A DNA stretch of 46,097 nucleotides from a virus. The number at the start of each line of letters is the position of its first letter. The stretch's first letter is position 1. Position numbers and translations under genes: made by a program. This document shows, piece by piece, positions 1,479 to 45,799 of the stretch. Location: positions 191,513 through 237,609 of IMG/VR virus record IMGVR_UViG_3300045972_000138; one strand, 5' to 3'. Below the pieces are notes generated by a model that did no database searches, had not been told where the DNA came from, and saw nothing but the letters and a program-made list of their open reading frames with translations.

Positions 1479-1808
1479 ATGTTCTCTAAACCACTTAGCG
1501 ACTTGGCAGACAAGTACAAGACACCGGATGGTCAGATTTCGTTGTTATACAATGTGCCAATGGATCATTTGGCGGCGGTGAGGAAAGTGTTGCAAGAACA
1601 CTTTGAGCACAGCAAGGACACTTACAGCATTCGGTTTCGCGGGCCACGGCCTTCTTATATGCAGCAAAGCACACTTAAGAAGGATGCTACAGCGTTCTCT
1701 GTGTATGTTACGCCAAAGCGTAAGAGATATACTTCGATTTTTACAACACGCGGGCAGGCGTCGGTCAACGCAGTAGAATACATTAACGGACAATGGGTAT
1801 CACTATGA
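1479..1808 (+). CDS. hypothetical protein
   Basis: 109 aa, basic, with an alternation of polar and hydrophobic residues suggesting a small alpha/beta fold. First gene of a six-gene operon (1479-3418). Its stop overlaps the ATG of the first MKTS-family paralogue (ATGA at 1805-1808). No family recognised. Confidence 0.7.
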   Translation: MFSKPLSDLADKYKTPDGQISLLYNVPMDHLAAVRKVLQEHFEHSKDTYSIRFRGPRPSYMQQSTLKKDATAFSVYVTPKRKRYTSIFTTRGQASVNAVEYINGQWVSL

Positions 1809-2143
1809 AAACATCCGAACTGCTCAAGAAAGCTAAACGCAAACTGGCACACACCGATATTGACAGCAAGGAGCAATTTATTTGCCACTCAATCGATGAG
1901 GTAGTCTGGAAGCGTCATCGTGATATTGCGACCGAAGAAAACGCAGCCCGGCTGAAGCGCGTTATTTCGCAGCGGCTTGCACCACATCGCACATTGGAAG
2001 CGTGGCTCGAAGCTACGCACAGCATTAAGGAGCCGCCTTGCTGGTACCAACACGAATTTAATCTGTACCTAACAAAGGTACAGACCACTCGTCACGCATG
2101 GGTCAAGAGCATGATTGCTGAATACACGGTCAAAGGAGATTGA
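1805..2143 (+). CDS. MKTS tandem family, copy 1
   Basis: 112 aa. Start chosen at 1805 because the MKTSxLLKxA opening then matches the next three genes; ATG at 1793 is an alternative. Shared blocks in order: MKTSxxLKLA; FICHSID near residue 28; RLxxxxTLExWL near residue 63; QTTRHAWVKSMIAEY near the C-terminus; last residues KGD. The invariant W and TRHAW block suggest a compact helical domain. Translationally coupled to the gene before. No known function. Confidence 0.8.
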   Translation: MKTSELLKKAKRKLAHTDIDSKEQFICHSIDEVVWKRHRDIATEENAARLKRVISQRLAPHRTLEAWLEATHSIKEPPCWYQHEFNLYLTKVQTTRHAWVKSMIAEYTVKGD

Positions 2144-2144
2144 T

Positions 2145-2447
2145 ATGAAAACATCCAAAGTCCTGAAACTTGCACGCCCACTTATCAAAGATTACGAATT
2201 CCTCTGTCGCGCAGTTGATTCGACAAGGTGTCGCGACAGTAATGTAACTATCGAAGATGTAATCCGCGTCCAGGCAATGATCTCTAAGAGGCTCGATGGT
2301 TACTTCACACTAGATTCTTGGCTGTTATATGTACACGGAGTTCTTGCCAAAGATATGGATGATAATAAGTATGAAAAGAAAATGCTTCAAACTCGTCTTG
2401 CTTGGTGCGATTCAATGATTGCAGAATTTGCTGCCAAAGGAGATTGA
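2145..2447 (+). CDS. MKTS tandem family, copy 2
   Basis: 100 aa, with the same blocks as its neighbours (MKTSKVLKLA, FTLDSWL, TRLAWCDSMIAEFAAKGD). The junction AAAGGAGATTGATATGAA carries SD, stop and start together and is repeated at each gene border of the array, a sign of recent tandem duplication. TRHAW is changed to TRLAW here. Function unknown. Confidence 0.8.
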   Translation: MKTSKVLKLARPLIKDYEFLCRAVDSTRCRDSNVTIEDVIRVQAMISKRLDGYFTLDSWLLYVHGVLAKDMDDNKYEKKMLQTRLAWCDSMIAEFAAKGD

Positions 2448-2448
2448 T

Positions 2449-2796
2449 ATGAAGACATCCAAGGTCCTGAAACTTGCTAAAACATATTTGGCGGCGAGTC
2501 ACTGTGAGATGCGTAACAATTATAAGGAAGAATATATTTGTTACTCGGTAAATGATGTATATCTCAATCACCATAAGTGTAGTATAGATGATCGAAACCG
2601 TGTCAAGGATATGATTGCCAATCGACTCGGTGACTACTGCACACTTGACGACTGGCTCGAGAGCCTTCACAACATCGTGCATCCCGACTGGGATGAAGCC
2701 AAATCTAAAATGGATGCATTTGTTGATAAGATGCAGAAGACGCGCCACGCCTGGGTTGATTCGATGATTGCAGAATTTGCAGCAAAAGGAGATTGA
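2449..2796 (+). CDS. MKTS tandem family, copy 3
   Basis: 115 aa. Blocks MKTSKVLKLA, YICYSVNDVY, RLGDYCTLDDWLESLHNI, KTRHAWVDSMIAEFAAKGD. Same fused SD/stop/start junction as copies 2 and 4. Function unknown. Confidence 0.8.
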   Translation: MKTSKVLKLAKTYLAASHCEMRNNYKEEYICYSVNDVYLNHHKCSIDDRNRVKDMIANRLGDYCTLDDWLESLHNIVHPDWDEAKSKMDAFVDKMQKTRHAWVDSMIAEFAAKGD

Positions 2797-2797
2797 T

Positions 2798-3160
2798 ATG
2801 AAAACATCACAAATACTGAAACTTGCCAAGGTCCACCTATCTGATGGTGCCGGCAACGGTAGTCAACAATTTATTTGCTGGGCAATCGGCAAAGTATATG
2901 GTGTGCCAGAGCACGCACTTATGAACCTCAAACAGGATATAACTCACAAGTTGGGCTATGACTATGAGGGCGAAAACTATACAAGCACACTTGAGCTGTG
3001 GTTGTCTAAGAACCACAATATCCCGATGGTCAAGCCCGTCTACAACGGCAATGAATGGGTAAACAAAGCCGAAGTGGCAGCGTATCAGGCCAAACTTCAG
3101 CGAACTCGCCACGCCTGGATTGACAGCATGATTGCAGAGTTTGAAGCACAAGGTGATTAA
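2798..3160 (+). CDS. MKTS tandem family, copy 4
   Basis: 120 aa. Blocks MKTSQILKLAK, FICWAIGKVYG, STLELWLSKNHNI, RTRHAWIDSMIAEFEAQGD; an insertion of about 20 residues follows the WL block. The stop TAA is directly followed by the ATG of the next gene. A fifth, dispersed relative lies at 19993. Function unknown. Confidence 0.8.
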   Translation: MKTSQILKLAKVHLSDGAGNGSQQFICWAIGKVYGVPEHALMNLKQDITHKLGYDYEGENYTSTLELWLSKNHNIPMVKPVYNGNEWVNKAEVAAYQAKLQRTRHAWIDSMIAEFEAQGD

Positions 3161-19992: not shown

Positions 19993-20331
19993 ATGGAATA
20001 CACAGAACGCCAACGCCGCACACTGGCCAACACGTTTAAGAAGGCACTCAAACGCTTGCCGGATTCGTTCAATGAGGTCGGGCCAACCTATGCAAGTCCG
20101 TACATCTGCGACAACATCTATCACGTATCCTGTACCCGATCTGCTGCCTTGGCATCTAGCTTGATTGCTGAACGCATTAACCGCGCATTTAGTATTGAGC
20201 GTTGGTTGAAAGATCAAAGCCCATCGATTTCCGATGATGTGCAACACGATGTACTTTGCAATGACGGCAAGAAGCTGCAAGCTTATCGCAAGGCTTGGCT
20301 TCGTAAGCTGATTGCAGAGTTTGAGGTGTAA
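19993..20331 (+). CDS. MKTS-family relative, dispersed copy 5
   Basis: 112 aa. Although the MKTS start is lost (MEYTERQRRTLANTF), it keeps the family order: YICDNIYHV, LIAERINRAFSIERWL, LQAYRKAWLRKLIAEFEV, equivalent to FICxS, RLxxxTLExWL and TRHAWxxSMIAEF in genes 1805-3160. SD AAGGAG. Function unknown. Confidence 0.7.
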   Translation: MEYTERQRRTLANTFKKALKRLPDSFNEVGPTYASPYICDNIYHVSCTRSAALASSLIAERINRAFSIERWLKDQSPSISDDVQHDVLCNDGKKLQAYRKAWLRKLIAEFEV

Positions 20332-23431: not shown

Positions 23432-23440
23432 GGAGCTATG

Positions 23441-23767
23441 ATGCGCCCTGTAATTGTGGCGGCCCTCGTGGCGGCCCTTACAGGGTGTGCCGTCCCTGTA
23501 CCGAGGTTTGAGACGGCAGTAGGGTTAGTGCAGTGGCACAAAGTGAAAGACTTACAGGATATGCGCGTCATTTGCGATGATGTGCGATTCAAAATGCCGG
23601 GAATCACATACGGCTGCTATAAGATGGATAGCGAGAACAAGGTGTGCCACATCTACGCAATGGATAACGAACGATACTTCGGTACACTTGGGCACGAACT
23701 CAAGCATTGTTTTGATGGCAGGTTCCACGATCAATTTGGAAATAGTGCGTATCCAATCGACAAATAG
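23441..23767 (+). CDS. lipoprotein with zincin-like motif, paralogue 1
   Basis: 108 aa. Signal peptide II, lipobox LTGC (Cys16). The C-terminal half carries GHELKHCFDGRFH: an HExxH zinc motif followed by GxxH, as in zinc metallopeptidases, with one residue more between HExxH and G than the usual metzincin. Two Cys pairs (near 47/60 and 69/88). Closely similar to the product of 39663. ATG 23441 preferred over 23438 for SD spacing. Peptidase activity unproven. Confidence 0.75.
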   Translation: MRPVIVAALVAALTGCAVPVPRFETAVGLVQWHKVKDLQDMRVICDDVRFKMPGITYGCYKMDSENKVCHIYAMDNERYFGTLGHELKHCFDGRFHDQFGNSAYPIDK

Positions 23768-25524: not shown

Positions 25525-26958
25525 ATGATTAAACTATTATCAGTTCTAGCTGTTGCTACCGCGCTCACAGCGTGCGGTGGTGGCAGTGGTGGTCTCGACG
25601 TTGCAGGTGCAAACCCTGCAACAACCGAAGCCACGATGTCGCCAATGGCGGCAATTACAAGTGCCAGTGCAGCAATGCAAGCATCTGTCACAACCGCAGG
25701 TGGGTTATCTAGCTTCGGTCAAAGTCCAGCAGCAGTTCGTACTCGTTACGGATTTGACGCACTTACTACCCCAGCCCAACAGGGTTCGGGCCAAACTATC
25801 GTGATCATTAGTGCTTACGATAATCCTACAGCGGGTGCTGACTTAGCAGCATTCTCAGCAGCAAAAGGTATCGCAGGATGCCCTACTGTTGCAACGACAT
25901 TCGTTACACCAACGAACAGCTATCCTCAGGCAGTTGTACCAAAGCCAGTGATTGGCGATGGATGCACCTTCCAGAAGTTCAATGCAAACCCTAACGGTTT
26001 GGGTGCAAACCCAACTGCTATCCAGTACGATACGTCTGGTATGTGGATTGCAGAGAGCAACATGGATATCCAGTGGGCACACGCAATGGCTCCAATGGCA
26101 AAGATTGTATTGGTACAAGGGTCCAACAACTTCATCAGCTCACTTAGTGGTGCGGTTGCAGTTGCTAACCAATTTGCCGACGTAATCTCTATGTCGTGGG
26201 GTGGATACGAAAGCGCATTGAACCAAACCACAGCGTGTACGACAAACGAAATGGTGTTCATCCCAGGATGTACATTGTTTACGAAGACTCAGTACTCGTT
26301 GTTTGGTGCACCAAACACAACATACGGCACAGCAGGTGGATACGACACGAAAATGTTCTCCAATCCTAATGTGACATATGTTGCGGCATCGGGCGATGCA
26401 GGATCTAAACCACTTTGGCCATCAGTGTCAACAAAGGTACTCGCAGTTGGTGGAACAAACAGCAGCGGTGCAACTGATACAGGTTGGACAGGCAGTGGTG
26501 GCGGTGTTTCTACATACTACACACGCCCAAGCTGGCAAACTGTTTCGGGTAATGCTCAACGCACTACACCCGACGTAGCAATGCCAGCAGACAGCGCAAC
26601 CCCAATGAGTGTATACGTTAGCCCGCAAAAGGGTATGCCAGATACTGCTTGCGTAACAGCAAAAGGTGCGGCAGCTTGTGGCTGGTATGCAGGTTACGGT
26701 ACAAGTGTTAGCGCACCTATGTGGGCAGGACTTGCAGCGGTTACCAAAGCAGTTCGTACACAAAATGGAAAGCCAGTAGTAGACTTCATTGCATCACTAT
26801 ACAACGTGGCGGCAGTACAAGGCAACTATGTTACAGCATTTGGGGACGTTACAACAGGAACAAACGGATTATACTCGTCGAAGGCCGGATATGATTTGGT
26901 TACAGGACTTGGTGTACCTAAAGCGAATGCACTAGTTGGAATGTTAGCAGCTCAATAA
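25525..26958 (+). CDS. S53 family (sedolisin) peptidase, lipoprotein
   Basis: 477 aa. Lipobox LTAC (Cys17) then a Gly/Ser linker. Catalytic pattern of sedolisins: Glu177 and Asp181 in AESNMDIQWAHAMAP, oxyanion Asp291 in AASGDAG, nucleophile Ser394 in GYGTSVSAPMWAG, and the calcium site Asp441..Asp457 in FGDVTTGTNG and AGYDLVTGLG. All key residues are present, so it should be active. The usual N-terminal pro-domain is short or absent (about 40-65 residues before the catalytic domain). It would be exported and anchored to the envelope. Monocistronic with strong promoter, SD AAAGGAG and terminator. Confidence 0.9.
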   Translation: MIKLLSVLAVATALTACGGGSGGLDVAGANPATTEATMSPMAAITSASAAMQASVTTAGGLSSFGQSPAAVRTRYGFDALTTPAQQGSGQTIVIISAYDNPTAGADLAAFSAAKGIAGCPTVATTFVTPTNSYPQAVVPKPVIGDGCTFQKFNANPNGLGANPTAIQYDTSGMWIAESNMDIQWAHAMAPMAKIVLVQGSNNFISSLSGAVAVANQFADVISMSWGGYESALNQTTACTTNEMVFIPGCTLFTKTQYSLFGAPNTTYGTAGGYDTKMFSNPNVTYVAASGDAGSKPLWPSVSTKVLAVGGTNSSGATDTGWTGSGGGVSTYYTRPSWQTVSGNAQRTTPDVAMPADSATPMSVYVSPQKGMPDTACVTAKGAAACGWYAGYGTSVSAPMWAGLAAVTKAVRTQNGKPVVDFIASLYNVAAVQGNYVTAFGDVTTGTNGLYSSKAGYDLVTGLGVPKANALVGMLAAQ

Positions 26959-33520: not shown

Positions 33521-33563
33521 TCTCGCTCTGTGCCCATCGGCGTCTTGATCGACTCGTCCGAGG
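33521..33563 (-). repeat. 43-nt dispersed element, copy C
   Basis: Identical over 43 nt to copy D at 36346. Confidence 0.75.
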
Positions 33564-33570
33564 CTAAATA
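33563..33570 (+). promoter_or_regulatory. possible late-type motif GCTAAATA
   Basis: 22 bases before the ATG of the C1A peptidase gene; begins at the edge of 43-nt copy C. Confidence 0.35.
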
Positions 33571-33592
33571 TTCCATCCAATGGAGATATATT

Positions 33593-34336
33593 ATGACAAA
33601 GACCTACAATGTAGTTAAGAGTGCACCAGACGCAAGGGACTATCAGTTCTCGCAGAAGGTATCGATACCAAAGAGCGTGCCCAGCGCGGTGGACTTGCGT
33701 CCGCATATGCCTACCGTTGTTGATCAGGGTAACCTAGGCAGTTGCACCGCGAATGCTATTGTAGCAGCATTTCAATACGATCTTACCAAACAAAAATTAA
33801 ACATATTCACAGGATCCCGCCTGTTTGTGTACTATAATGAACGTGTAATGGAAGGAAGTGTAGGACAGGATAGCGGTGCAATGATTCGTGACGGGATTAA
33901 GTCCCTTAACACGTATGGCGTATGCAGCGAGCCAACGTGGCCTTATATCATAGCTAAGTTCGCAGTTAAACCGTCTACAGCAGCTTACACGCAGGCAAAG
34001 CTAAACAGAGCACTAACCTATTACAGCGTTGCGAGCAATCCTACTGCAATCAAAACAGCACTTGCCGCGGGCTTCCCAGTAGTGATCGGCATCGAAGTCT
34101 ACGAGAGCTTTGAAAGCGATGCTGTAGCAGTAAGCGGTGTTGTTCCTATGCCTGGTCCCTCGGAGCAGTTACTCGGTGGTCATGCAGTCCTAGTGGTAGG
34201 CTACAATGATGTATTAAAACAATTCATTGTACGCAATAGTTGGGGCACTGGTTGGGGCAAAAGCGGATACTTCTTCTTGCCTTATGCATACACATCGCTA
34301 ATGAGCGATTGCTGGGTAGTCTCCTCGGTGAACTAG
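33593..34336 (+). CDS. C1A (papain-like) cysteine peptidase
   Basis: 247 aa from ATG 33593 (SD GGAGA). Catalytic Gln45 and Cys51 in DQGNLGSCTANAI, His197 in GGHAVLVVGYND, Asn215 in VRNSWGTGWGKSGYFFLPYAY. No signal peptide and only a short N-terminal segment, so no inhibitory propeptide. Should be an active cytoplasmic or virion-carried protease. Its last codons form the 5' arm of 43-nt element B. Confidence 0.9.
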   Translation: MTKTYNVVKSAPDARDYQFSQKVSIPKSVPSAVDLRPHMPTVVDQGNLGSCTANAIVAAFQYDLTKQKLNIFTGSRLFVYYNERVMEGSVGQDSGAMIRDGIKSLNTYGVCSEPTWPYIIAKFAVKPSTAAYTQAKLNRALTYYSVASNPTAIKTALAAGFPVVIGIEVYESFESDAVAVSGVVPMPGPSEQLLGGHAVLVVGYNDVLKQFIVRNSWGTGWGKSGYFFLPYAYTSLMSDCWVVSSVN

Positions 34337-39662: not shown

Positions 39663-39992
39663 ATGCTACGTATCATTCTATTAACTATCTTACTAACTGG
39701 TTGTGCCACTAAGTTTGAAAAAGGTTCAGCCGGAATGGTGTATTGGCATAAGCTGGATTCTCAAGACGAAATTGTAGAAGCATGTTTACCTCCGCATACT
39801 AGGGGTTCGATTGTATTCAATATTCGTGGATGCTATGTGTTCAATGATAATGTTTGCCATATATACGCACAGGATGATATTAACAGTATGAAGTATTTAG
39901 GGCACGAACTCAAACACTGTTTTGATGGTCACTTTCATAATGCACGCGGGCAATGGTATAAGCTTGATAAGAATGGTAATATCATAGATTAA
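39663..39992 (+). CDS. lipoprotein with zincin-like motif, paralogue 2
   Basis: 109 aa. Lipobox LTGC (Cys14). GHELKHCFDGHFH near residues 79-91, with VYWHKL and NVCHIYAQDD as in paralogue 23441 (VQWHKV, KVCHIYAMD). All candidate zinc ligands kept. No SD; late-type motif. Codon use is more AT-rich than paralogue 1. Confidence 0.75.
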   Translation: MLRIILLTILLTGCATKFEKGSAGMVYWHKLDSQDEIVEACLPPHTRGSIVFNIRGCYVFNDNVCHIYAQDDINSMKYLGHELKHCFDGHFHNARGQWYKLDKNGNIID

Positions 39993-40083
39993 CTTCAATG
40001 CCGGTATTTTTCTAGGCCTTAAAAAAATTTTACAGTAAAATTTTCTCCAGCCCACTATAGGGTCAATCATATTCCTATTTTTA

Positions 40084-40091
40084 GATAAATA
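40084..40091 (+). promoter_or_regulatory. late-type promoter GATAAATA
   Basis: GATAAATATGGGAT, 7 bases before ATG 40099; same 14 bases as at 31036. Confidence 0.55.
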
Positions 40092-40098
40092 TGGGATT

Positions 40099-40302
40099 AT
40101 GGTACTATATATGTTCCTTCCTACAATAAGGCCAGATTCAAGTAAGGAACTTATAAAACGTGTCCGTACAGCCAAAGTATGGCTAATAGAGCATAAGGTA
40201 CTAGCAAGTGGAAGTTGTGTTATGTTCAATAATACCGAAGATTACCTATTCTTTAAACTTCAATTCAGCGACTTGCTACAGGACATATACAATGACAATT
40301 AA
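40099..40302 (+). CDS. FKL-tail family, member 1
   Basis: 67 aa. Strand-helix start, then VMFNNTEDYLFFKLQFSDLL. A second ATG at 40111 is possible. First of 19 genes sharing the tail. Leaderless. Confidence 0.65.
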   Translation: MVLYMFLPTIRPDSSKELIKRVRTAKVWLIEHKVLASGSCVMFNNTEDYLFFKLQFSDLLQDIYNDN

Positions 40303-40552
40303 GATAAATGTAAACAATTCATATATACAGCACGCCTACTCTGCTGCATACAATGCTTTATACGAGCCGGCTCAACGTGAATATGATTTCTTTAATAATA
40401 GAGAACTTCATGATTACTGGATGGTACGTACTAAGGAATTGCTATGTGCTCAAAACAAATTCAAGATTATATCAGAGCGTAGTGGTTACCCTACTGAGAT
40501 AGAGTTTGAGGATGAGAGCGATCTAATTGTGTTCAAATTGAAGTATAGATAA
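40292..40552 (+). CDS. FKL-tail family, member 2
   Basis: 86 aa from ATG 40292 (nested in member 1). Tail EIEFEDESDLIVFKLKYR; middle has DYWMVRTKELLCAQNKF. Confidence 0.7.
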   Translation: MTIKINVNNSYIQHAYSAAYNALYEPAQREYDFFNNRELHDYWMVRTKELLCAQNKFKIISERSGYPTEIEFEDESDLIVFKLKYR

Positions 40553-40555
40553 ATA
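40548..40555 (+). promoter_or_regulatory. late-type promoter GATAAATA
   Basis: 8 bases before ATG 40564, overlapping the stop of member 2. Confidence 0.55.
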
Positions 40556-40563
40556 TAGCAATT

Positions 40564-41793
40564 ATGTTACTATACGAACTCATATCCGAAGCTAGGCGTA
40601 ACCCTGGGCAAAATGTTAAAGCTGAAGGGCACGAAGCGGCTGTTAATTTTCTAAAGAGTAAAGGCAAGGAATTACGATACTACGGGGTTAGTATGACAGA
40701 TATTCCTAAGCTAGGGATTAACCCCGGATCTAGGTATAACACTCCTGTAGGTATTTACTATTACCCTGCTGAATACTATGTAAGAAAGAAGAGTAAGGGT
40801 AAAGAATTAGAGTTTAAGGATGATGCACCTTATATACAGGTTTTTAAGATTAAGGCTAACACTATAGAACTTATCGATGAAGTAAACCACGATACGTATG
40901 GTGGATACGTTAAGTTACTATATAAGAATGTTGGGCAGATTGCGAAGTATATTAATAAGTCGGAAAAAGAAACTTATAGCTTACTTAATAAACTAACAAT
41001 GGAAGCACCGCAAGAAGCTAAGGTTAATTCCTATGGTGGATGTCTATGGTATATACTTTACTCCTTGGGATTCTATGCTGGTAGGGATAAGCGCGATAAT
41101 GCTCCACCACGTAGTTCTGTTGTGTGGAATGCACTTATAAGAATGTTAGGATTAGATGGGATTGAGGATAACGGTGCGGGTATTATACACGAGAATGAAC
41201 CTTACCAGGGTGTTATTGTAAATCCTAGAGGTGTGGAGCACGTTAATACATTTAAGAATGTAGGTAAGAAGGATGATACAACTAGCCTTAGATTTACTAA
41301 GTGGGCTAATGCACCTATTAACGAATTTTCTATAGGTAACTTAGCGGATGATGTAGACGAGTGGGATATGCAATATAGTGATAAGCATAGGAAAGAATGT
41401 AAGGCGATTATGACTAAGGTACTTACTGTATTACGTAACTCTCCTTCTACTTATTTAAGTTTGGGCCAGCGAAAAATATTCTCTTTGTTAAGGTTAAGTA
41501 ATGACACTAATGTTAGGCAGGAATTGGCTGTAGGATATTTTGCTGCTAAGTTTCCTAGAATGAAGGCAGAGCTAGATGAAATAGTTACTGTATGGGAAGA
41601 AGAAAAGAATAGTGTTGAGTGGGCTGCGAAGCCAGAAAGTAGAAAGCAACGTGCATTTGCATTATGGGTACCTCCCGAGAAAGTAGCATACGCGCATGAG
41701 TTTATGCGAAACTTAACTCCGTATAAATCCTCTAGTGCCGATGCTAAGAAGATGATTGATTATATCGAAGCTTCCTTAGCTAGGTTAAAGTAA
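40564..41793 (+). CDS. late phage protein, 409 aa, unknown function
   Basis: Begins LLYELISEAR, a start I associate with virion-related proteins of T4-like phages. Conserved-looking stretches: PGSRYNTPVGIYYYPAEYY (55-73), SYGGCLWYILYSLGFYAGRD (near 155-175), GAGIIHENEPYQGVIVNPRG (near 205-225). Charged helical C-terminal half. Leaderless behind a late-type promoter, so probably a late or structural protein. Enzyme motifs not seen. Confidence 0.75.
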   Translation: MLLYELISEARRNPGQNVKAEGHEAAVNFLKSKGKELRYYGVSMTDIPKLGINPGSRYNTPVGIYYYPAEYYVRKKSKGKELEFKDDAPYIQVFKIKANTIELIDEVNHDTYGGYVKLLYKNVGQIAKYINKSEKETYSLLNKLTMEAPQEAKVNSYGGCLWYILYSLGFYAGRDKRDNAPPRSSVVWNALIRMLGLDGIEDNGAGIIHENEPYQGVIVNPRGVEHVNTFKNVGKKDDTTSLRFTKWANAPINEFSIGNLADDVDEWDMQYSDKHRKECKAIMTKVLTVLRNSPSTYLSLGQRKIFSLLRLSNDTNVRQELAVGYFAAKFPRMKAELDEIVTVWEEEKNSVEWAAKPESRKQRAFALWVPPEKVAYAHEFMRNLTPYKSSSADAKKMIDYIEASLARLK

Positions 41794-41892
41794 TTACATA
41801 ACATTAAAGCAGCGGTTAATAGGTGTTTGAAATTTGCGCTTTTTCGGCGCGCTCGCTGCGTACTGACCTTAACCGCGCCTGAAGGTTTCCAA
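41794..41892. other. intergenic structured RNA candidate
   Basis: GCGGTTAA (41812-41819) pairs with TTAACCGC (41869-41876), enclosing GC-rich inner hairpins (GCGC..GGCGC). No poly-T after it. Confidence 0.4.
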
Positions 41893-41921
41893 TTGACATC
41901 ATTAAATATTAGTTGTATAGT
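41893..41921 (+). promoter_or_regulatory. sigma70-type promoter, leaderless
   Basis: TTGACA, 17-bp spacer, TATAGT; ATG 41930 is 8 bases later. TAAATAT lies in the spacer. Head of the FKL array. Confidence 0.7.
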
Positions 41922-41929
41922 AGCCTAGT

Positions 41930-42142
41930 ATGAGTACATATCAAATATTTCAAGCATGGCAACACAAGGAATTATTCCTGAAAGCGGATGTCTGGCTAAC
42001 TACTGTAGAAGACGGTGCGGAATGGAATTGGAAGCGTGGTAGGTCTACTATAAATGGAGTAGAGTATCCTGCTGCTGTAAATATAGAGCATGAAGAAGAT
42101 TTGTTAGCATTCAAATTAAAGTTTGGTGAATTACTAAGATGA
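41930..42142 (+). CDS. FKL-tail family, member 3
   Basis: 70 aa. Tail VNIEHEEDLLAFKLKFGELL. Opening gene of the compact array; all later members overlap or abut. Confidence 0.7.
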   Translation: MSTYQIFQAWQHKELFLKADVWLTTVEDGAEWNWKRGRSTINGVEYPAAVNIEHEEDLLAFKLKFGELLR

Positions 42143-42333
42143 AAACTATACGTGTGGGCTCTTGGCCTTTTCCAACTGGTGTAGCCGCAGAGCGACAAGT
42201 GTGGCTATTAGAATTACCTAAAATGAAGAATGGAAGCCCTGCATATACATATGATAGTGGGTTAACATTTTCTAGAATAATATTTAAACGCAATGAAGAT
42301 GCAACTGCTTTTAGGTTAAAGTTTGATCTATGA
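42139..42333 (+). CDS. FKL-tail family, member 4
   Basis: 64 aa. Strand KTIRVGSW, tail IIFKRNEDATAFRLKFDL. ATGA overlaps on both sides. Confidence 0.7.
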   Translation: MKTIRVGSWPFPTGVAAERQVWLLELPKMKNGSPAYTYDSGLTFSRIIFKRNEDATAFRLKFDL

Positions 42334-42590
42334 ATATTATTATTGAACCACCTGTCAGCGATTATTATATTGTACAGGTTGATGTTACTGATGCTATGTT
42401 AGCCGAGGATCCGTGGGGCAGAGAATGGTTTCCGGAAATAGAAGCGTGGTGCCACCAAACGCTCGGGCAACAAGATATGTGGGGCGAACCCGTAGTAACT
42501 GGCTGGAAGCGTATGCGTAATAAGTTTTTCTTTGCAGATGAAGATATGCTTACTATGTTTAAGTTAGTGTGGGGTGGACCTGTAGAGTGA
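42330..42590 (+). CDS. FKL-tail family, member 5
   Basis: 86 aa. YYIVQVDVTDAM strand, helix EIEAWCHQTLG, tail KFFFADEDMLTMFKLVWG. W-rich middle typical of the array. Confidence 0.7.
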   Translation: MNIIIEPPVSDYYIVQVDVTDAMLAEDPWGREWFPEIEAWCHQTLGQQDMWGEPVVTGWKRMRNKFFFADEDMLTMFKLVWGGPVE

Positions 42591-42826
42591 AAGCAACAGG
42601 TGACACCGTTTGCCAAGTTACTGTCGGTGATGGTACTCTGTATGAGTTCGAATACTACACATATACTATGCAAGCCGAATACTTTGTTAGACGCGATTGG
42701 GTTAAAGAGAATATAGGAATATTCGGTAAAGACTATTATCATCACCAAGGTACATGGTGGTTTAAAACAGAAGAAGATTTGTTAGCATTTATATTAAGGT
42801 TTGACTACGGAAGAAATAATGTATAA
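42587..42826 (+). CDS. FKL-tail family, member 6, GTG start
   Basis: 79 aa from GTG 42587 (GTGA overlap). Tail WWFKTEEDLLAFILRFDYG (FKL changed to FIL). Confidence 0.65.
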   Translation: MKATGDTVCQVTVGDGTLYEFEYYTYTMQAEYFVRRDWVKENIGIFGKDYYHHQGTWWFKTEEDLLAFILRFDYGRNNV

Positions 42827-43031
42827 TCTAAAGGTAATAAAGGATGGTCGGTCTAATAGCGATGGCGATGACCTCTGGGATCACTTTGTTGATTGGGTTG
42901 TGGATACACGCGGTGTACGGTATGTAGATACTGTATTATCTGAAATGAACGCAAAGAACATAAATGGTACTCCGTACATACAGTTTCGGTCCGAAGAGGA
43001 TGCAATCGTATTTAAGTTGAGGTTTACATAA
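42819..43031 (+). CDS. FKL-tail family, member 7
   Basis: 70 aa from ATG 42819. Tail IQFRSEEDAIVFKLRFT, the cleanest match to the consensus. Confidence 0.7.
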   Translation: MYNLKVIKDGRSNSDGDDLWDHFVDWVVDTRGVRYVDTVLSEMNAKNINGTPYIQFRSEEDAIVFKLRFT

Positions 43032-43052
43032 TGTTCGAATTGGGTGCCGACT

Positions 43053-43301
43053 ATGAATGGAATTAATTTGGGTAGGAAAGAACCTACCTGGTCATTTGTT
43101 AAGTTTCCCGACTTTGATCAAAGAGCAGAATGGAAAATATCAGGTGATACCTTAACTGATTACAGGGCATTTTTGGAAACAAATGCAGGACCAGAAACCG
43201 ATACCTGGTACTGGCTCCGGGGTGACAGATTCGCACAAGGCGTGTATATTAGTGATGCGTCTGTAGCAGTAATGTTTAAATTGAAATTTGATTTATCGTA
43301 A
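43053..43301 (+). CDS. FKL-tail family, member 8
   Basis: 82 aa from ATG 43053 (GTG 43044 possible). Tail VYISDASVAVMFKLKFDLS. An abortive frame ATG..TAA at 43031-43066 sits exactly where a coupled start is expected. Confidence 0.65.
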   Translation: MNGINLGRKEPTWSFVKFPDFDQRAEWKISGDTLTDYRAFLETNAGPETDTWYWLRGDRFAQGVYISDASVAVMFKLKFDLS

Positions 43302-43525
43302 TGTTGCAGCAGGACTTCGACGGATGGTATATAATTAACGGACCTAATTCTGTTAGGATATATAAATCGTTGGACTGGTGTAAGAAAAATCTTCCTGCTG
43401 ATATATGGGAATATTCTTGGCATAATGGGGTCTTCTCATTTAAGAATAGTACAGATGCGTTAATGTTTAAACTTTTATTTGATGATGATTGTAGATCAAG
43501 GGATACTCAACAAAGTGTGGACTAA
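43301..43525 (+). CDS. FKL-tail family, member 9
   Basis: 74 aa. GWYIINGPNSVRIYKSLDWC, tail FSFKNSTDALMFKLLFDDD plus an extension of about 12 residues overlapping member 10. Confidence 0.65.
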   Translation: MLQQDFDGWYIINGPNSVRIYKSLDWCKKNLPADIWEYSWHNGVFSFKNSTDALMFKLLFDDDCRSRDTQQSVD

Positions 43526-43733
43526 CTGGCTCAGAAAAAAATTTACTGATCCATACATAGTAAGATCTAACAGCACGGATTATTCGCGGGTTGCAAGACG
43601 TTCGCATATTGCACAGGAATTTGAAATGTGGTTATGGGCAGAAGGTGCAGCCGTTAGGCGTGCTAACAAGAAATGCACTTTAGAATTCTTTGATGAAGCA
43701 GATGCATTAGCCTTTGTTCTAAGAAACAGTTAA
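43482..43733 (+). CDS. FKL-tail family, member 10
   Basis: 83 aa from ATG 43482 (or 43485). Tail CTLEFFDEADALAFVLRNS. Starts 44 bases inside member 9. Confidence 0.65.
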   Translation: MMIVDQGILNKVWTNWLRKKFTDPYIVRSNSTDYSRVARRSHIAQEFEMWLWAEGAAVRRANKKCTLEFFDEADALAFVLRNS

Positions 43734-43734
43734 T

Positions 43735-43953
43735 ATGATTAAATCAGAATTGAAATTAACAGATAGTCGTAGTGTTGTGTATGTTGCAGCAACAGAGGTG
43801 CAACCCTGGATGGAAGAAACTTTTGGCAAGAAAGAAAACGGTAAGCGCAGGCAATGGTCTGTAAGGGCAGATTACCATAATCGTAAGATTATTATTATGA
43901 CACGTATCCCGGAACAGGCTGTAATAGTTAGATTGCGATGGGGTTCGATATGA
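43735..43953 (+). CDS. FKL-tail family, member 11
   Basis: 72 aa. SVVYVAATEVQPWMEETFG, tail IIIMTRIPEQAVIVRLRWGS: a divergent tail (VRLRW). Confidence 0.65.
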   Translation: MIKSELKLTDSRSVVYVAATEVQPWMEETFGKKENGKRRQWSVRADYHNRKIIIMTRIPEQAVIVRLRWGSI

Positions 43954-44165
43954 CATACCTATTAGACACTGGATTGCCTACTGCTACCGCTCCGTGGTTT
44001 GCTAACTTCATTAATATGTGTGCCGACGAATCGCAGTCTAAGGTTAATTTAGAAGATTCATTCAGAAGTAATTTAGCAAAGTATAACGGGCGCGGTACCA
44101 AGAGTGCCTTTATCGAATTCGATACTCCAGAAGATGCAGTTGCTTTTGTGCTAAAATGGTCGTAA
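43950..44165 (+). CDS. FKL-tail family, member 12
   Basis: 71 aa from ATG 43950. Tail AFIEFDTPEDAVAFVLKWS. ATGA overlap with member 11. Confidence 0.65.
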   Translation: MTYLLDTGLPTATAPWFANFINMCADESQSKVNLEDSFRSNLAKYNGRGTKSAFIEFDTPEDAVAFVLKWS

Positions 44166-44179
44166 CATGTTTATACTAG

Positions 44180-44392
44180 ATGGCTTTAAGATATAATAAT
44201 TCAACTAGAATTTTTCCATACCATGTAAGTTACCCGCGGACTGGCAGCTGGTGGGCCAGCGATTGGAGAGATATGAGCAGTTGGTTAAATGCAACCATCG
44301 GACCGTGCGTCTATGAATGGGAATATCTTAGCGAGTGCTTTTATTTTAAAACTAAAGAAGATTTATTAATATTCAAATTAAGATGGCTATAA
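44180..44392 (+). CDS. FKL-tail family, member 13
   Basis: 70 aa. SWWASDWRDMSSWLNATIG, tail FYFKTKEDLLIFKLRWL. A short abortive frame (44167-44196) precedes it, as before member 8. Confidence 0.65.
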   Translation: MALRYNNSTRIFPYHVSYPRTGSWWASDWRDMSSWLNATIGPCVYEWEYLSECFYFKTKEDLLIFKLRWL

Positions 44393-44706
44393 CTAACGTA
44401 ATGATACCAATGATTAAGCGAATAATGCCCGGGATACTTGCAAATCAAATTACCGGTATTCACCCCATGCCTGCATCCACAGGTAGCATATTTACTGTTA
44501 AGAATAACTGGTTGTTTAGGGATTATAATAAGAAATATTGGCCACACCAATTTATAGTTGAAAACGATAAACGTAGAGAAGTAGAGAAGTGGTGTTGGAA
44601 TCATTTTAATGGCTGGCGTTGGCATAGTAGCCGTGGTAAGTTTGTATTTAAGAAGGCCGATGATGCTATGCTATTTAAAGTAAGATGGGAATGTAGGTCA
44701 GCATGA
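44383..44706 (+). CDS. FKL-tail family, member 14
   Basis: 107 aa. Long N-terminal extension, then KRREVEKWCWNHFNGWRWHS and tail FVFKKADDAMLFKVRWECR. Confidence 0.7.
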   Translation: MAITNVMIPMIKRIMPGILANQITGIHPMPASTGSIFTVKNNWLFRDYNKKYWPHQFIVENDKRREVEKWCWNHFNGWRWHSSRGKFVFKKADDAMLFKVRWECRSA

Positions 44707-44957
44707 GCGAACTCATTACACGCCGCAGAGGGCATGAAGATTTTGAAAAGATGCTCAAAATCATCAAATTCTGCGAAAAGCAATTCGGTAAGACAAATTG
44801 CTTTTACACGTGGGATATCAACTTTGCAGATGATACAGAAGACTACTGTGCATTCAAGTTCTGGGACAATTCAATGGCATCATACCTAAAGTTGATATAT
44901 CCCGAATTAATGACAAGAGAGCAATTTGATAATAGAATATACGATGAGAGTACTTAA
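44703..44957 (+). CDS. FKL-tail family, divergent member 15
   Basis: 84 aa. Tail DYCAFKFWDNSMASYLKLIY keeps the F.f..n.mA.yLKL pattern, followed by an unrelated end. ATGA overlap. Confidence 0.6.
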   Translation: MSELITRRRGHEDFEKMLKIIKFCEKQFGKTNCFYTWDINFADDTEDYCAFKFWDNSMASYLKLIYPELMTREQFDNRIYDEST

Positions 44958-45147
44958 CAAAAAATACTGGCCTTACCAATTTGACTTACCTAAAGAAGTA
45001 GTGTATGTCACTGATGTTGACAAGCGCGAAGCGTGGTGTGAGGAAAATCTAAAAGCTAGTCAATGGAGATCGTTCGGGTGGAATATAAAAACTTTTGCAT
45101 TTAAGAATGCAGAAGATGCAACTGTGTTTAAGTTAATGTTCAAATGA
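44944..45147 (+). CDS. FKL-tail family, member 16
   Basis: 67 aa from ATG 44944. NKKYWPYQFDLPKE repeats NKKYWPHQFIVEN of member 14, so these two are close relatives. Tail FAFKNAEDATVFKLMFK. Confidence 0.7.
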   Translation: MRVLNKKYWPYQFDLPKEVVYVTDVDKREAWCEENLKASQWRSFGWNIKTFAFKNAEDATVFKLMFK

Positions 45148-45341
45148 GCAATATCGTAACGGTTAGTTACACTGTATACGACGAATCACTGAAGTGGGCA
45201 AAAGAACACTGCCCGGGCTATATAACGAACGACTATCATATGATTAGTGAAGATGAACTCGATATATCATATATCGATTTCTTCTTTAGCTTAGATGCAG
45301 AAGAAGATATGACTGCCTTTAAATTAAAATGGGATAAATGA
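45144..45341 (+). CDS. FKL-tail family, member 17
   Basis: 65 aa. TVSYTVYDESLKWAKEHCPG, tail FFFSLDAEEDMTAFKLKWDK. Confidence 0.7.
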   Translation: MSNIVTVSYTVYDESLKWAKEHCPGYITNDYHMISEDELDISYIDFFFSLDAEEDMTAFKLKWDK

Positions 45342-45568
45342 CTGGGTACAGATTACGCATTGTTGGCGAAAGCACTGTTAGCAATATGCTACCGGTGTGG
45401 AAAAAATTTGTAGACACAATTAATCTTCCCACAAATCATACACAGTTTATAAGAGTACGAGATGAAAAGTTGTTATACGAATACAATGCTAAAATCGACA
45501 AAGATAGAAAGCATTTACTCTTTAGATCAGAAACAGATGCAGTAGCATTCAAGTTAAGGCACTCATAA
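45338..45568 (+). CDS. FKL-tail family, member 18
   Basis: 76 aa. GYRLRIVGESTVSNMLPVWK, tail HLLFRSETDAVAFKLRHS: the clearest strand-helix-strand-strand-helix layout. Confidence 0.7.
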   Translation: MTGYRLRIVGESTVSNMLPVWKKFVDTINLPTNHTQFIRVRDEKLLYEYNAKIDKDRKHLLFRSETDAVAFKLRHS

Positions 45569-45799
45569 ATGGATATGGTTAAAATTGATTTAACCGCATA
45601 TTGGAATAGAATATATGCAGGTACAAGTATTCTAAATACTGCGTCGTTTGCTGAATATAGAGTTATGAGAGAATGGTTAGCAAATACTAATACCCAACAC
45701 GAATTCAAATGGAACGACACAGGAATGTATTTGCCGGATTGCGTGTGGATAGATATAACTAGCGACACAGCAACAATATTTAAGTTGAAGTACCTATGA
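45569..45799 (+). CDS. FKL-tail family, member 19
   Basis: 76 aa. MVKIDLTAYWNRIYAG, tail VWIDITSDTATIFKLKYL. Overlaps the next gene by ATGA. Confidence 0.7.
   Translation: MDMVKIDLTAYWNRIYAGTSILNTASFAEYRVMREWLANTNTQHEFKWNDTGMYLPDCVWIDITSDTATIFKLKYL

Follow-up and report, generated by a model that had tools for sequence, protein, structure and literature searches.

The 46,097-nucleotide stretch analysed here (positions 191,513–237,609 of the 237,609-bp virus record IMGVR_UViG_3300045972_000138; hereafter the window) contains, at positions 40099–45799, an array of 19 small open reading frames (ORFs) on the plus strand, which on the evidence of their sequences are one homologous family. We call this family FKL after the tail shared by its products. 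It occurs widely among jumbo phages of the T4 superfamily, and one array member joins the FKL domain to a segment of the major capsid protein gp23. At somewhat less than even chances, we read the array as an early, non-virion accessory repertoire, directed at the host or at rival phages and built on one small domain. Because the window is the right end of the record, the region beyond the array lies partly off the record.

The 19 members are ORFs of the window, and a profile was built from their sequences. Their common C-terminal tail reads F.F..EDA..FKL+W, and for the family at large the criterion was F.F..[ED]..xxFKL+[WF] standing last or nearly last in a small ORF. A six-frame regular-expression search of the window for the tail returned the array cluster and two stray matches elsewhere, both of which were non-C-terminal. 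The profile recovered all 19 members from the record (E = 2.8e-16 to 2.5e-8) and added four copies at record positions 97574, 99364, 140015 and 4823. An initial annotation of this DNA had described a 19-gene array with a common C-terminal motif and had suggested a profile search as a check. All 19 ORFs are present on the plus strand, and an independent tail model, built from other phages only, found 18 ORFs in the record (14 belong to the array region) against none in 20 shuffles; nearly all of its matches lay within 7 residues of the C-terminus. The tail thus occurs much more often than chance would allow, and it is a feature of C-termini. Two details of the earlier description held only in part. 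The “DA” of its motif often has L, M or Y as its second residue. The tail stands at the protein end in most members, but member 15 (44703–44957, plus strand, 84 amino acids (aa)), which is among the weakest matches (E = 1.1e-8), has an internal motif with about 30 residues beyond it.

With a degenerate DNA pattern that encodes EDAxxFKL[KR]W, 25 IMG/VR stretches were retrieved, and 153 members were read from them, with a median length of 83 aa and the tail at the extreme C-terminus. Whole-record searches with a 133-member alignment gave 22 copies in the source phage record and at least 150 in the contig IMGVR_UViG_3300046616_000314 (561 kb); the isolate Phosso, a Sinorhizobium phage, has 43, four other large contigs have 30–43, and the Pseudomonas phages PA5oct and Paride have 3 each. 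Atu_ph07 has 6–7 copies. Whole-genome family searches of T4, XacN1, SCTP-2, RAS14, RaK2 and BcepSauron found no member. The initial annotation had mentioned similar tails in other hypothetical phage proteins, and such tails were indeed found there. Two single-copy, conserved groups stand outside the arrays, namely the “YVPMNELI” group (record 97 kb; relative 49% identical to PA5oct gp210) and the “FNSGDPM” group (record 99 kb). No family in Pfam, PHROG or NCBIfam covers the FKL domain, its sequence relatives are uncharacterised phage proteins only, and tblastn of an ordinary array member against isolates gave chance matches only. Among the N-terminal modules fused to the domain, gp23 segments are the only recurrent kind. 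Gene capture from many phage genes was rejected as a source of the FKL bodies, which match no long phage ORF recurrently, gp23 excepted. As a separate observation, an ORF of G013 (L150:5456–6139, minus strand) encodes a GNAT acetyltransferase (PF13302, E = 1.8e-14) that ends in a C-terminal FKL domain.

Member 16 (44944–45147, plus strand, 67 aa) was modelled by AlphaFold2 with a 133-row alignment as a β-α-β-β-α arrangement (predicted local distance difference test score, pLDDT, 85; predicted template-modelling score, pTM, 0.69), in which the conserved tail comprises strand 3, a turn and helix 2, and the conserved W lies within helix 1. This predicted order is that of a ferredoxin-like fold without its last strand, in line with the small ferredoxin-like or similar fold that the initial annotation had suggested. 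The family-wide fold is carried over from this one well-modelled member; the “YVPMNELI” group, modelled from 4 sequences, gave a prediction too poor to read a fold from (pLDDT 66). A Foldseek search of the PDB with the FKL model returned nothing at E ≤ 0.001 (best E = 0.37), and the leading matches in BFVD were all uncharacterised proteins, from uncultured Caudovirales and from Atu_ph07. The predicted β-α-β-β order and the position of the F.F..EDA block at β3–α2 resemble the RNA-recognition motif (RRM) and other ferredoxin-like domains, from which FKL differs in having no significant sequence or fold match. An RRM-like, RNA-binding reading of the modelled domain is possible but unsupported. 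It would make the array a set of early RNA- or DNA-binding regulators of host or phage RNA, with the tail corresponding to β3/α2 of an RRM-type domain, and would account for an order that fits a truncated RRM-like fold, for RRM chains low in the Foldseek list and for a weak Pfam RRM_1 match of the member at 43938–44165 (E = 0.043). However, that match is below the cut-off, the PDB gave no significant hit, and nucleic-acid binders are not typically fused to capsid segments or a GNAT acetyltransferase, so that we consider such regulators unlikely.

Member 14 (44383–44706, plus strand, 107 aa) is an atypical member, since its residues 4–43 (44392–44511, plus strand) are gp23 capsid sequence, a feature that the initial annotation had missed. 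This segment matched PF07068 with E = 3.1e-7 (30.6 bits against a gathering score of 24.4) and phrog_138, the gp23-type capsid family, with E = 3.2e-6, and it aligned to T4 gp23 (record NC_000866, used for all T4 comparisons) from residue ~89–92 to ~130. It covers positions 5–44 of the 376 in the PF07068 profile, the rest of the protein being the FKL domain, and by this alignment member 14 is not a complete HK97-type capsid protein. More generally, the gp23 segments resemble the capsid proteins of PF07068/phrog_138 in exceeding the Pfam gathering score, but they span only about 27–60 of the 376 profile positions, from which no HK97 fold could form, and the remainder of each protein is unrelated. 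No other gp23 was found in the source record, which may be incomplete; an ordinary full-length gp23 is present in Phosso, G001, G002, G004, G010, G013, PA5oct and XacN1.

Across phages, this fusion is the best conserved gene of the window array (88 bits to its G011 counterpart; 61 for the next member). Orthologous fusions were found in G011 (L030:11977–12330), L169, L170 and L171, which together with the window member makes at least five phages, and those compared are 41–81% identical over their length, the linker N.KYWP.Q included. The ratio of nonsynonymous to synonymous substitution rates (dN/dS) was 0.143 for the fusion between G011 and L169 and 0.12 between L170 and L171, and it was 0.050 for the upstream array neighbour of the G011–L169 pair. 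Such low values in the orthologue pairs measured indicate that the fusions are working genes and not debris. A homing endonuclease gene does adjoin gp23 in PA5oct and in T4, and the gp23 pieces could in principle be relics of homing-endonuclease or recombination damage within arrays of neutral junk. Against this, the orthologous fusions have been kept in at least five phages at dN/dS 0.12–0.14 (FKL part 0.06, neighbour 0.05) and the array consists of 19 intact, tightly packed ORFs, which leaves the debris explanation very improbable.

Further gp23 pieces occur both with and without the FKL domain. A separate gp23–FKL fusion at L023:3271–3834 has a longer gp23 piece, a second FKL protein of G011 (L030:7636–7905) carries a middle-helix segment that falls below the cut-off (E = 0.0036), and an FKL protein of Phosso (record 113926–114360) carries a C-terminal segment above it (E = 9e-6). 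No relative of the latter was found beyond itself, and the same holds for the G004 protein. Free of FKL, an N-arm piece is present in G004 (L065), at the C-terminus of XacN1 ORF261 (L165:1298–2083), and in the Phosso ORF 182169–182852, where the segment precedes the annotated start and its translation is therefore uncertain; a middle-helix piece forms part of XacN1 ORF451 (L166:1751–1975), and weaker cases were seen in G010 and Phosso. Since the cultured phage XacN1 carries gp23 segments without having the FKL family, the occurrence of capsid pieces extends beyond the FKL arrays. In an unbiased scan of 5,918 small against 523 long ORFs, gp23 was the top long protein found as a piece, with 5 unrelated small ORFs; the next had 3, which resembled ordinary shared domains. 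Recent capture from a known gp23 was rejected, as none of the gp23s tested, which did not include the full gp23 of the source phage itself, is a near copy of the segments (28–57% identity throughout). The interpretation of XacN1 ORF261 as a terminase-type ATPase with a gp23 tail was also dropped, as Pfam supports the gp23 part only. Adjoining the Phosso gp23 N-arm segment, L041:13368–15101 and L050 (Phosso 182–184 kb) hold a second run of small genes, which share another C-terminal block (W..FM..LRL-like).

The initial annotation had ascribed the array to tandem birth and had called it a diversifying repertoire. The first claim is upheld in two relatives: member pairs above 30 bits made up 39% of adjacent against 9.5% of distant pairs in G002 (a 561-kb phage), and 21% against 0.4% in G004, but no excess of similarity between adjacent members was detectable in the window array. 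As for the second, turnover between phages is evident, several window members having no detectable relative in the phages compared, but no positive selection was measurable in the orthologue pairs examined, whose dN/dS of 0.05–0.14 is purifying.

Late promoters of T4 carry the motif TATAAATA. In the record, GATAAATA occurs 56 times against 17.8 expected, and 45 of its copies have an ORF start within 70 nucleotides (nt) against 1.0 in shuffles. It precedes a sheath-like and a tube-like gene, which we take from their sequences to encode the tail sheath and the tail tube. By these sequence statistics, GATAAATA clearly qualifies as the T4-type late-promoter motif of the source phage. Strict sigma-70 sites, defined as TTGACA-N16..18-TATA[AG]T, number 7 in the record against 0.6 expected, and 6 of them precede an ORF start where 0 would be expected. 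One such site (41893–41921, plus strand; TTGACA-N17-TATAGT) ends 8 nt before the ATG of a run of 17 FKL genes, members 3 to 19, so that the mRNA of this run would be nearly leaderless. At least one other strict sigma-70 promoter, at record position 223480, stands only 5 nt before an ATG and suggests leaderless early mRNAs. Given the strong sigma-70 promoter before it, the 17-gene run is probably expressed early; members 1 and 2 and a 409-aa gene follow late-type motifs instead. Among the phages sampled, a sigma-70 site matching at 11 or more of 12 positions lay within 120 nt upstream of 10 of 120 FKL runs (0.97 expected), and the late motif accompanied 3 of 120 (1.16 expected), which is no enrichment.

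The likely early expression argues against virion parts, and the interchangeable virion components proposed by the initial annotation do not agree with a host-type early promoter before the 17-gene run or with FKL runs that are not enriched for the late motif. In that scheme, FKL proteins would be minor head proteins or capsid-assembly parts, with the gp23 segments as docking arms into the capsid lattice. The fusion of gp23 segments to the domain, the position of the PA5oct FKL gene gp210 two genes from a head maturation protease, and the late-type motif before two window members would all suit it, but besides the promoter pattern the copy number, which ranges from 3 to more than 150 among related phages, is odd for a structural part. 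In addition, none of the 3 PA5oct FKL genes bears a note of detection by electrospray tandem mass spectrometry (ESI-MS/MS), a weak negative because no annotated protein below ~120 aa in that stretch has one. A structural role thus seems to us improbable.

In the accessory-repertoire reading that we favour, T4-superfamily jumbo phages would have built up their FKL genes through tandem duplication with divergence. Host RNA polymerase would transcribe the array soon after infection, ahead of the capsid genes, and the products, each having a target of its own, would act in the host cell and not in the virion, most likely in host takeover or counter-defence. The gp23-bearing members might use their segment as a bait, in which a free capsid peptide binds the partners of full gp23, and the target may be a capsid-sensing defence or the assembling capsid of a competing phage. 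If made before the capsid, such a free segment could compete for sensors or bind rival subunits, and the remaining array members would use the shared domain for a broader range of baits or blockers. The capsid segment common to the fusions aligns to T4 gp23 residues ~90–130 and may cover the Gol region. Gol comprises 29 residues in the first quarter of gp23, is its most conserved part, and binds EF-Tu, which lets the Lit protease cleave EF-Tu (PMC3014915). Capsid proteins also trigger other defences, for example CapRel (PMC9712102), and are common defence triggers (PMC3014915, PMC9712102). The array segment is akin to the Gol/Lit system of T4 and E. coli in aligning to the N-terminal quarter of gp23; the difference is that T4 Gol lies within the full capsid protein and is the trigger, whereas the array segment appears from its sequence to be free, carried by a small accessory protein to which a further domain is joined. 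That separately encoded gp23 segments on a common domain serve as early decoys for capsid-sensing immune factors (Lit/EF-Tu-like, CapRel-like) or for rival capsids is possible, though we regard it as rather doubtful.

A purely inter-phage weapon would place the emphasis differently, with the gp23 segments as dominant-negative poisons that jam co-infecting T4-type capsids and the other members hitting other functions of rivals. It would explain why a single phage (Phosso, G011, XacN1) has different gp23 regions (N-arm, middle helix and C-terminal strand) spread over separate small proteins, and expression ahead of the phage's own capsid genes would suit it. The segments, however, match conserved parts and would also meet the phage's own gp23, with no self-protection seen, and their identity of 28–57% to all gp23s tested is not rival-specific; we judge this exclusive use to be unlikely.

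Several observations weigh against an early repertoire with capsid decoys. The FKL family is not uniformly early, since members 40099 and 40292 stand behind a late-type motif, and expression alongside middle or late genes is possible for the conserved single-copy members (record 97 kb and 99 kb; PA5oct gp210). Between G011 and L169, the one close pair, the gp23 module of the fusion has a dN/dS of 0.41 (43 codons) against 0.059 for the FKL part. The high conservation of gp23 favours detection of its pieces in the small-ORF scan, and Gol-like fragments are the easiest to detect because they come from its most conserved part (PMC3014915). Finally, PADLOC gave no defence link for the 19 members, with one weak match (DRT model, E = 0.003).

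In the array itself, a late-promoter-like motif of T4 type, GATAAATAT (40083–40092), lies upstream of the first FKL gene; this and all features below are on the plus strand. The late-motif-linked member 1 (40099–40302, 67 aa) is overlapped by member 2 (40292–40552, 86 aa from the ATG at 40292). Between the two FKL groups stands the 409-aa gene (40564–41793), uncharacterised and with its own GATAAATA motif, for which no Pfam or PHROG match was found. Member 3 (41930–42142, 70 aa) opens the 17-gene run, followed by members 4 (42139–42333, 64 aa), 5 (42330–42590, 86 aa), 6 (42587–42826, from a GTG start at 42587), 7 (42822–43031, from the ATG at 42822), 8 (43044–43301, 85 aa), 9 (43301–43525, 74 aa), 10 (43482–43733), 11 (43735–43953, 72 aa, with the degenerate tail AVIVRLRW), 12 (43950–44165) and 13 (44180–44392, 70 aa). 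After members 14 to 16, members 17 (45144–45341, 65 aa) and 18 (45338–45568, 76 aa) lead to member 19 (45569–45799, 76 aa), which closes the run. Between adjacent genes there is either a short gap or an overlap of a few nt, and start codons further in than those of the longest ORFs (at 42587, 42822, 43950 and 44944) give the usual short stop/start overlaps. The operon-like run of 17 members (41930–45799), with two more ahead of the 409-aa gene, had been delineated correctly in the initial annotation. Relatives' arrays are packed similarly, with negative intergenic gaps in 68 of 86 measured, mostly −4 or −10.

Elsewhere in the window, another tandem family of 3–4 ORFs (1793–3160) shares similar starts (MKTSxxLKLAK) and the C-terminal block W.DSMIAEF.AKGD, with a likely relative at 19993–20331. 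A 477-aa lipoprotein-like ORF (25525–26958) looks like a secreted serine peptidase (S53/S8-like) and has one of the record's 7 strict sigma-70 promoters in front of it; a 268-aa ORF (33530–34336) reads as a papain-type (C1) cysteine peptidase. Two paralogous small lipoproteins (23438–23767 and 39663–39992) share an HExxH-like motif (GHELKHCFDG) and are possibly metallopeptidases.

Expansions of small domains in jumbo phages are already known in kind. Bacillus phage G has about 35 zinc-ribbon copies, a lineage-specific expansion of small proteins in which, likewise, one giant phage holds numerous diverged copies of a single small domain (PMC7824862); FKL differs in being another domain, in its overlapping operons, in its occurrence in several phage lineages and in its capsid-segment fusions. 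In phage T6, SegB-driven segmental amplification expands an anti-defence locus, which resembles the FKL arrays, as we read them, in using tandem amplification as a route to counter-defence variety (PMC13096335), but the T6 copies of a segment are recent, whereas those of FKL are old and strongly diverged. Neither the FKL family nor its shared fold or its fusion to capsid segments turned up in the libraries and literature searched. FKL is an undescribed family whose members run into the hundreds in a few phages, and because some of the carriers are cultured (Phosso, PA5oct, Paride, Atu_ph07), it is directly testable. If the proposed reading is true, early accessory proteins with conserved stand-alone capsid segments would constitute a new class of phage protein, and the way would be open to testing how T4-type phages evade capsid-sensing defences. 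Should the gp23 pieces poison rival capsids, they would represent a new mode of phage–phage competition.

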